From the NCBI RefSeq assembly GCF_025860405.1, contig NZ_CP063785.1, forward strand, positions 2,976,001 to 3,040,000: a stretch of 64,000 nucleotides of DNA. Direction: 5' to 3'. Position 1 is the first letter of the stretch. Every line of letters begins with the position of its first letter. The translations under genes and the position numbers were made by a program. A model generated the notes under the pieces. That model was not told the origin of the DNA, did no database searches, and saw only the letters and a program-made list of their open reading frames with translations. This stretch comes from Tolypothrix sp. PCC 7712 (lineage in GTDB: Bacteria; Cyanobacteriota; Cyanobacteriia; Cyanobacteriales; Nostocaceae). Shown one piece after another: positions 16,908 through 53,027 of this stretch.

Positions 16908-17049
16908 TACCCCCTCATCTCCCTTATCCCCCTCATCCCCCTCATCCCCCTCATCTCCCTCATCTCCCTCATCTCTCTCATCCCCCTCATCCCCCTCATC
17001 TCCCTCATCTCCCTCATCCCCCTCATCCCCCTCATCTCCCTCATCCCCA
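16908..17049. repeat. CCCTCATCT/CCCTCATCC nonamer tandem tract
   Basis: About sixteen nine-base units, mostly CCCTCATCT or CCCTCATCC, running up to the stop codon of the ribokinase gene. The same nonamer occurs at 5745-5800 and 52926-52965. Confidence 0.85.
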
Positions 17050-40266: not shown

Positions 40267-41970
40267 TTAAATTCCGTGGCTCTTCCCAATCACCCAGTTA
40301 CGCCGGAAAAATCGCGCTAAAGCGGATTCTTCTAATGATAAATAAATAGGCCTTCCGTGAGGACAGGTGCGAGGATTGCGAGTGCGTTGCCATTGATCTA
40401 AAAGAGTTTGCATTTCTGGCAAACTCATCGGTGTACCATTGCGTATAGCACTGCGACAAGCAACAGCAACTTGCGCGGCTTGTAAATCACCACCTAAACT
40501 CAGTTCTAAAATAGCATCGGCACAATCTTCTCGTTGTTGCAACATTGCGGGGATATTGCGAACCGCCCAAAGCTGTTCGCCAAAGGTTTCTATATCTAAA
40601 CCAATGCGTTGTAATTGTGCAACTTGTTTTGGCGTTAATTGATAAAGAATAATTGCTGGTTCAATGGGTATCATTTGCCAGCTATCGCATAATTGCTCAT
40701 ACAAAACTCGCTCATGGGCAATATGCTGTTCTACTAACCAAACTCCCTCAGAATGTTCCACCACAATATAAGTATTGCTAACTTGAGCAACAGCTTTTAA
40801 AGAATAAGGAGTACTCAATCCTGAGTTCTGAGTATGATCCTCATCTTTGGGATTTTTCGGATTAAAATTGTAGCCGCCTTTAGCTTCCGCAGCTTTGAGT
40901 AATTTACTGACGCGGGTAATATGAACGGCTTCTTTAATATTGGCAGAACTGAGGCGTAATGCTTGCTCAATTCCTTGAGTCACTTGTTCTTGCCAATAAC
41001 CGATTTCATTAAGATAAATTTCTGTTTTCGCTGGGTTACGATTCCAGTTAATTTGGTCTGGAGAAATATCAAGATGTAAGAAACAAACGGGATAGCGATC
41101 GCGTGGTAATGTGCGATGGAATGCTGCCAAAATTGTTTGCTCTAATTCTGCTGACTTCACCATCCGGCCGTTAATGGCTACACGTACCCAATCTGGACGA
41201 TGACGATGACAGCGATCGGGTAATCCTACCACTAATGTGAGTTCTGAGTTCTGAGTTCTGAGTTCTGAGTTAGCTGGATGGGGTATTGCTAGTTTGACTT
41301 CTTGGAAGTCGGCTTCTTTAACTTGGGGTATGAACTGCGGCAGTAATTTTTTGCTGGTGCTAGCCGGATAAATCGTAAACCAATCACGGTCATTTTGTTG
41401 CACTTGCCAGGTAACTTGGGGATGACATAAGGCAATTTGTTGAATTGCAGTTTGTACAGCTTTCATTTGCTGTGCAACTACTGGTAACCCCTGACGACGC
41501 GCTACACAATTGGCGAATAAATCAGATACTGTCACCACTGTACCAGGTGCGATCGCAGCGACTTCTACTTGCTGAACTTTTCCGCCATCGCTATAAACAA
41601 CTCGCCATCCCCAATTTTCACCAGCCGGACGACTCAAAATTTCTAAATTTGACAAATTTGTCAAACTGTGCAGTGCTTCTCCCCGAAATCCTAAACTGCT
41701 AATTTTCCATAAATCAGCACAAGTGTAAATTTTACTGGTGCTGTGAGTGGCTGCGGCTTTTTGCAAATCATCTAAGTTCATTCCGCAACCATTATCGGCT
41801 ACGCGCACTCGCCATTGCTGCGGCCAGAGAGACACAACAATTCTCGTCGCGCCAGCATCCAAGGAATTTTCTACTAATTCCCGCACGACAGAAGCTAAAG
41901 AGTCGATCACCTCTCCAGCTGTAATTAGATATACGACTTCTGTCGGTAAAGCGTGAATAGTAGATGTCAT
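40267..41970 (-). CDS. mutL: DNA mismatch repair protein MutL
   Basis: A 567-residue GHKL ATPase. The N-terminal motifs VVRELVENSLDAGATRI, DNGCGMNLDDL and THSTSKI...SLGFRGEALHSL are intact. The C-terminal part has EQHIAHERVLYE, close to the metal-endonuclease motif DQHA(X)2E(X)4E but with Glu and Ile at two positions, and CPHGRP near the end, so it is probably an endonuclease-type MutL. At 41239-41271 a GAGTTCT heptamer tract lies inside the frame and encodes NSELRTQNSEL; a gain or loss of one unit would shift the frame. Confidence 0.95.
   Translation of the reverse strand: MTSTIHALPTEVVYLITAGEVIDSLASVVRELVENSLDAGATRIVVSLWPQQWRVRVADNGCGMNLDDLQKAAATHSTSKIYTCADLWKISSLGFRGEALHSLTNLSNLEILSRPAGENWGWRVVYSDGGKVQQVEVAAIAPGTVVTVSDLFANCVARRQGLPVVAQQMKAVQTAIQQIALCHPQVTWQVQQNDRDWFTIYPASTSKKLLPQFIPQVKEADFQEVKLAIPHPANSELRTQNSELTLVVGLPDRCHRHRPDWVRVAINGRMVKSAELEQTILAAFHRTLPRDRYPVCFLHLDISPDQINWNRNPAKTEIYLNEIGYWQEQVTQGIEQALRLSSANIKEAVHITRVSKLLKAAEAKGGYNFNPKNPKDEDHTQNSGLSTPYSLKAVAQVSNTYIVVEHSEGVWLVEQHIAHERVLYEQLCDSWQMIPIEPAIILYQLTPKQVAQLQRIGLDIETFGEQLWAVRNIPAMLQQREDCADAILELSLGGDLQAAQVAVACRSAIRNGTPMSLPEMQTLLDQWQRTRNPRTCPHGRPIYLSLEESALARFFRRNWVIGKSHGI
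41239..41271. repeat. In-frame STRR GAGTTCT x4.7 inside mutL
   Basis: Four perfect GAGTTCT units and GAGTT. The tract falls between the ATPase domain and the following conserved part. The same heptamer is common in this genome's intergenic DNA (for example 60867-60899). Confidence 0.95.
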
Positions 41971-52329: not shown

Positions 52330-53027
52330 CCCTTACTGAATTAGCTTTTTTGAAAAATAGACTGCTGGCAACAGTCACACTTTTGATCACATCTGTACAG
52401 ACTGGCTGTTGAATGCTTCCGTAACTGCTATACGAACAAAGCCTGCCATGCAGGCTTTGTTGTCGATCAATTAGCAACATTAGACTCACCTAATGCTTTA
52501 GCAACAGGTCTGATCTTTTGATTGTGAGTTAGTTTTTCATCCTAACCACTTGTTAAACAAACTCTGCCAAAGAGCTTGCCAAAAACGAGATTTACCCAAT
52601 AAGAGACTATCTGATGATGACAAAAATCTACACCATGATTGCCTGCTCAGTGAACTTGTTCACTTCTAGGCGTGTCTCAGAAGCGTTTTGTTGAGGATGA
52701 TCTGCATCACGGGTAAGCAAAACCCGCTTTAGCTGTTATTTTGCGCTTTAACGCCAAGTCTCATTCTACAACAAGTTGGTGTTGTGAATTGGATTGGGGA
52801 CTGGGGATTAGGGACTGGGGATTGGGGACTGGGGACTGGGGATTGGGGATTGGGGAACTCGGGGCCCCCTCTGGGGATAAGGGGTAATGGGGATTGGGGA
52901 TTGGGGATTGGGGATTGGGGATTGGGGAGATGAGGGAGATGAGGGAGATGAGGAAGATGAGGGAGAAATAACAAACACCAATGACAAATGACCAATTACC
53001 AATTACCAATTACCAATTACCAAACCC
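52330..53027. other. Intergenic region with hairpin and repeats
   Basis: Perfect 12-bp hairpin AACAAAGCCTGC/GCAGGCTTTGTT at 52435-52461, upstream of ftrV. At 52788-52925 lies a GGGGATT/GGGGACT STRR with a GGGGCCCC-type unit (52852-52892), then nonamers to about 52965 and TTACCAA heptamers to 53020. Confidence 0.7.

Follow-up and report, generated by a model that had tools for sequence, protein, structure and literature searches.

Recurrent frame-preserving repeat inserts at one site of MutL in Tolypothrix sp. PCC 7712 and its relatives

The heptamer array of the window mutL

The window, i.e. the whole 64,000-nucleotide stretch of Tolypothrix sp. PCC 7712 DNA that was analysed, carries a mutL gene with a perfect heptamer array and a shorter remnant of the same heptamer (Table 1). 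By family model the product is an ordinary MutL, with a full-length match to NCBIfam NF000951 (1-559 of 559) at 927 bits and a cut-off of 391. Tandem Repeats Finder reported the array as 34 bp with GAGTTCT as unit, 4.9 copies and a 100% match, and the letters from 41239 to 41271 are four GAGTTCT followed by GAGTT (33 bp). The four perfect units plus five bases that a first-pass annotation had placed in the mutL coding frame were thus confirmed, by the repeat search as well as by the open reading frame. The string GAGTTCTGAGTTCT occurs three times in the window, every time in the mutL array, and gave 0 occurrences in 100 dinucleotide-preserving shuffles. (AACTCAG)3 was found at 3 separate places of the window's own genome (7 overlapping matches), and a reversed control gave 0.

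On the coding strand (AACTCAG)n is read in the mutL frame as NSELRTQ per 21 bp; the unit is free of stops in every phase on this strand and carries a stop on the opposite one. The residues NSELRTQNSEL are encoded immediately ahead of the DNA_mis_repair domain. They had been described as a short insert between conserved parts of MutL, and the array does encode all 11 of them, but this overcounts the insert, since NSEL is native: compared with the insert-free genus-mate G001, which has PQPENSELLLVV at the site, the net insert is 21 bp or 7 aa. We refer to this position as site A. The 13-bp remnant sits in the linker ahead of the MutL C-terminal domain, which is the second variable site of the family (site B). 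In a predicted structure the array falls in a loop between strands 222-229 and 242-249, with pLDDT below 50 at residues 234-239; this AlphaFold model (alignment of 35 rows, the window and 34 of 80 named loci) is of low confidence, mean pLDDT 56.5, and was used for loop placement only.

Table 1. Positions of the features discussed in the text (handles beginning with L denote loci, G genomes and C contigs)
Feature	Position	Strand	Description	Basis
mutL	40267..41970	minus	567 aa, MutL of NF000951 type (DNA mismatch repair endonuclease MutL)	ORF + NCBIfam
HATPase_c_3	MutL residues 25-134		domain	Pfam
DNA_mis_repair	MutL residues 238-338		domain	Pfam
MutL_C	MutL residues 394-513		domain	Pfam
Perfect heptamer array (site A)	41238..41271	minus	sense (AACTCAG)4.9, residues about 234-244, NSELRTQNSEL	
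13-bp remnant of AACTCAG heptamer (site B)	40821..40833	minus	sense ACTCAGAACTCAG, residues TQNSG	
9-bp repeat	window 16910-17048		CCCCCTCAT	
9-bp repeat	window 52925-52966		GGGAGATGA	
Array in RecJ-like gene	L285:2529-2561		in-frame heptad array	
Array in PEP-synthase-like gene	L281:16828-16861		in-frame heptad array	
Array in MobA-like gene	L290:18139-18215		in-frame heptad array	
mutS of the own genome (L276)	G000:C1:4194617-4197169		about 11 SSP units (9-bp repeat)	

The consequences of changes in unit number were analyzed by translating simulated variants of the window mutL. Loss of one or two heptamers gave products of 243 and 261 aa, and gain of one or two gave 268 and 250 aa. This confirmed the claim that a change of one unit shifts the mutL frame. 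Truncation does occur, as had been predicted, but its extent was understated: more than the C-terminal half is lost, with both DNA_mis_repair and MutL_C gone, and by the Pfam boundaries the remaining 243-268 aa are the ATPase part alone. Three units equal 21 bp or 7 aa, and with changes of -3, +3 and +6 heptamers the frame was kept (560, 574 and 581 aa).

Inserts at the MutL site in the genus and the family

The mutL comparison covered eight genomes of the genus, 80 named loci and the GTDB family of the source genome (Nostocaceae-type relatives, 217 genomes, 214 with a match); the nearest named relatives were Calothrix, Nostoc and Tolypothrix. From 187 of the 214 matched genomes 188 mutL loci were read, and some of the 27 left out are full-length open frames. 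The gene was complete in 182 of the 187 genomes; in G082, G108 and G180 it ends at a contig end and was not counted. For the frame of the array 183 genomes are informative (the 182 with complete genes and G205), with one assembly per species, where minority alleles of a culture are invisible.

Within the genus seven of the eight genomes have an insert, G001 being insert-free. Whole-flank alignments gave noisy indel lists, as the flanks were often not orthologous, and two differences were kept: a gap in mutL of exactly 21 bp against L013 and L014, and a flanking noncoding array that differs by 7 bp (L010, position 43330, one case). The longest perfect period-7 run is 34 bp in the window and 21, 26, 21, 27, 12, 12 and 10 bp in the other genomes, and a run of at least 28 bp is present in one genome of the eight. 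Judged from these letters the genus does not conserve the slip-prone perfect array, since the other members have perfect runs of 10-27 bp. Aligned with its relatives, the insert was missing in some (as in G001) and variable in others; constancy throughout the family, which the first-pass annotation had set as counting against its proposal, was not found.

Across the family an insert at site A is present in 126 of the 182 complete genes and absent from 56, and the length of the segment varies from 13 to 100 aa (19-20 aa when insert-free). Sixty of the 126 inserts are multiples of 7 aa, where 18 were expected (binomial 5e-19, a strength inflated by kinship among the genomes); the other 66 are not. 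Perfect period-7 runs reach 20 bp or more at site A in 44 of the 182 genes, 34 of these 44 inserts being multiples of 7 aa, and runs of at least 34 bp occur in 8 of 182 species. The 44 arrays are built from 11 different heptamers, chiefly ACTCAGC (16), ACTCCCC (8), AACTCAG (6) and AACAGTC (5). Their units are stop-free in sense in 42 cases, and in 32 they would carry a stop in antisense, so it is the readable orientation that survives.

Heptamers are not all that this site takes up. An element of the D-A-I/M-N/H-R type (DA[IM][NH]R) was found in 24 of 182 site-A segments and 23 of 182 site-B segments, the latter varying in length from 29 to 75 aa (182 genes). The 27-bp DNA of this element is dispersed 11-93 times per genome in all five genomes searched, and in G104 and G109 it lies in mutL at both sites. 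Turnover of the insert is visible between close relatives. Among nearest pairs at least 93% identical elsewhere (n=65) the site-A length is equal in 31 and different in 34, and L111 and L169, 98.3% identical elsewhere, have different element types in the insert. At least 98 length changes and 25 heptad-state changes were counted by parsimony, on a fasttree tree with the insert columns removed and without support values. We also noted that the MutL of L104 and L105, 99.4% identical outside the variable sites, have inserts of equal length with different heptamer consensus (TCCCCAG vs. ACTCCTA/ACTCCCC), which is a sign of unit turnover within the array at constant length.

Taken together, the inserts at this one MutL site are recurrent, diverse, orientation-biased and frame-preserving. 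Short arrays can be mis-sized, and G105, where mutL, mutS and gyrB are all broken, looks like a genome with base-level errors in its assembly, but that the repeat has been collapsed or expanded by an assembly or annotation artefact is exceedingly improbable in view of the 182 open frames and of the separate genomes G002, G003 and G004, which have inserts of the same length with different substitutions. We also regard it as highly improbable that the insert has a selected protein function (e.g. tuning the contact of MutL with MutS or with the clamp), the repeats being merely the mode by which the segment evolves. Such a function would fit that MutL site A, linker B and one MutS loop vary in the same genomes; however, the 56 genes that do without an insert, the unrelated insert sequences of species as close as L111 and L169, and an insert that by eye conserves nothing beyond frame and polar make-up all argue against it.

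Arrays in other genes, a proposed frame filter and broken mutL genes

A survey of heptad arrays covered 464 kb of the own genome (the window and 20 stretches of 20 kb, with ORFs from a crude gene caller). Of 164 heptad arrays 113 lie outside ORFs and 34 inside, in agreement with the first-pass view that arrays of this type are mostly intergenic. Pfam domains were identified in the genes that contain four of the in-ORF arrays (ABC transporter, PEP-synthase-like, RecJ-like and MobA-like), hence mutL is not the sole gene with a heptamer array. In the window 9-bp repeats are also present beside many heptad arrays (Table 1). Repeats thus collect in tolerant loops; these are present in MutL and MutS and lacking in the controls GyrB and UvrB. 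MutS has a variable loop of 25-67 aa ahead of the P-loop (27 of 30 loci, where readable) and a run of at least 20 bp in 7 of 29 loci scanned, and no such run was found in GyrB or UvrB (0 of 30 genes each, in 30 genomes). The SSP units of the own-genome MutS lie just ahead of the P-loop, where the segment of the genus-mates G002, G003, G004 and G007 is shorter and of another sequence. Separately, gyrB of G022, G109, G103, G112 and G199 (L353, L355-L358) has large in-frame inserts, with open frames of 910-1212 aa, which we take to be inteins, probably.

The explanation that we consider highly likely is that a hypervariable, tolerant loop of MutL recurrently gains short tandem repeats and that purifying selection keeps the frame-neutral lengths. 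A short tandemly repeated repetitive (STRR) array would have expanded within, or inserted into, a beta-hairpin loop in the N-terminal half of MutL, a loop tolerant of very different inserts; this tolerance we infer from the predicted model, of low confidence, and from the length spread. Replication slippage or recombination would then alter the heptamer number blindly. Alleles off by one or two units would lose MutL function by frameshift and be purged by selection, whereas a net change of three units would add or remove seven loop residues at little cost and so produce the 7-aa length ladder. Such a frame filter is built in, as a 7-bp unit meets a 3-bp code. The array would have no dedicated switching role, and an occasional out-of-frame cell would be a by-product.

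The first-pass annotation had proposed a possible mutator switch. As a reversible (contingency) switch, a slip of one heptamer would turn MutL off in a mutator subpopulation, a second slip would restore it and the array would be kept for this purpose. In its favour the frame consequences are exact, a unit change shifting the reading frame in the simulation, the window genome has a perfect array, 8 of 182 species have perfect runs of at least 34 bp, one genome (G205) is off inside its array, and reversible copy-number change has been reported for a repeat in enteric mutL (PMC2955026). Apart from genes at contig ends, mutL is broken in two of the fetched genomes, G205 and G105. In G205 (L096) the frame shifts inside the heptamer array, where one unit has five C and its neighbours four; MutS (905 aa), GyrB and UvrB are intact. 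This extra C is possibly a real off allele or a homopolymer assembly error. G105 (L097) was rejected as a second off genome, as its mutL breaks at residues about 114 and 470, outside the array; assembly error is the likely cause, because frameshifts or stops interrupt its mutS and gyrB too. In G095 mutL is intact and no close MutS1 match was found in the genome, just a distant MutS-family match. Thus a frameshift inside the array is seen in one of the 183 informative genomes, and it is apparently due to one extra C within a run of C rather than to a heptamer. This, the lack of conservation of the perfect array in the genus and a loop that also takes 27-bp elements and other non-slipping inserts leave the switch unsupported, and we consider it very unlikely. 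Mismatch repair by MutS-alpha/MutL-alpha in S. pombe does not reach loops of seven nucleotides, its limit being about 4 nt (PMC5427490); if this limit held in bacteria, MutL loss would not raise the array's own slippage, and an off state would not hasten its own reversion. An in-frame repeat in mutL is, by itself, weak evidence for a mutator switch.

Returning to a tolerant loop with a frame filter, the way in which units are gained was looked into further. Growth in blocks of three units was not borne out, as lag 21 was favoured in only 14 of 28 coding and 8 of 14 noncoding arrays. In the 28 long coding arrays the mean unit identity decays steadily (0.74, 0.71, 0.70 and 0.65 at lags 7, 14, 21 and 28), and clear 21-bp higher-order repeats are found in few arrays (L113, L130, L131 and L132). 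L130, the mutL of G199, has an 80-aa insert of about 12 copies of such units (CAATAGT CAATAGT CCACAGT). Growth by 21-bp blocks alone would have made lag 21 as prominent as in L130 to L132, so that steps of a single heptamer, which are out of frame, or unit conversion probably contributed. The smooth decay and the unfavoured lag 21 together suggest that units were not added only in threes, with room for brief out-of-frame states. It is conceivable, though unlikely, that single-heptamer turnover thereby led to short mutL-null episodes, i.e. unselected, recurrent transient mutators in the family, with G205 at or close to this stage; on that view the 7-aa ladder is a fossil record of completed off-on cycles. 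The idea of an in-situ seed in native NSxL codons with a 7-bp period was rejected as well, as ACTC occurs twice at 7-bp spacing in only 4 of the 56 insert-free genes; in-situ seeding is possible for pairs such as L168/L176.

The 126 in-frame insert alleles, all at a single position in a core protein of DNA repair, form a natural series with which STRR growth by one or three units and transient null states of repair genes become testable.

Relation to known repeat systems

The name of the STRR heptanucleotide repeats of cyanobacteria is said to come from Mazel et al. 1990. The first-pass assignment of the heptamer to this type holds, as the 7-bp unit is tandem, has an array elsewhere in the genome and is found in a host with many heptamer families. 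Like STRR in general it consists of head-to-tail units, with many families per genome that lie mostly outside coding regions; unlike these, the window array lies in frame within a conserved gene, at a single site family-wide and with a 7-aa length ladder. A second comparison is with the small dispersed repeats (SDR) of Nostoc, reportedly described by Elhai et al. 2008: the 27-bp element is likewise present in tens of copies per genome, and many relatives have it in mutL, at sites A and B. It is a different element from the window array, and is likened here to SDR in general and to no named SDR class.

Heptamers of Nostoc PCC 7120, e.g. GGGGA(C/T)T, are reported as over-represented in non-coding regions (PMC4692102). 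The TAACTGA heptamers of Beggiatoaceae are similar in that few lie within ORFs and stop codons constrain one orientation, but they differ by lying mostly upstream of starts and, in ORFs, mainly at protein ends (PMC4679880). A survey of cyanobacterial repair genes lists both mutL and mutS for Nostoc PCC 7120 and reports that cyanobacteria have no mutH (PMC5101192). By title and abstract, no paper on heptamer arrays in cyanobacterial mutL was found in the open-access literature searched.

The closest parallel by gene is the mutL of Salmonella and E. coli, where, as in the window, a tandem repeat lies within mutL and a copy-number change by slippage can inactivate the protein (PMC2955026). That study surveyed the mismatch-repair genes of more than 100 species for tandem repeats; neither cyanobacteria nor Nostoc or Anabaena are named in the main text. 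The parallel drawn in the first-pass annotation stands as far as a reversible 6-bp repeat is reported; it fails in site, unit and effect. The enteric locus has three 6-bp repeats (GCTGGC) near nt 212; MutL is inactivated when one of them is lost, with the frame unaffected, and the repeat number is reported as conserved (PMC2955026), whereas the window array has a 7-bp unit at about residue 234 (234-244), would act by frameshift and has an unconserved repeat number. A frame-capable STRR in a MutL loop is ordinary in kind, and unusual in its place and in its 7-aa ladder.
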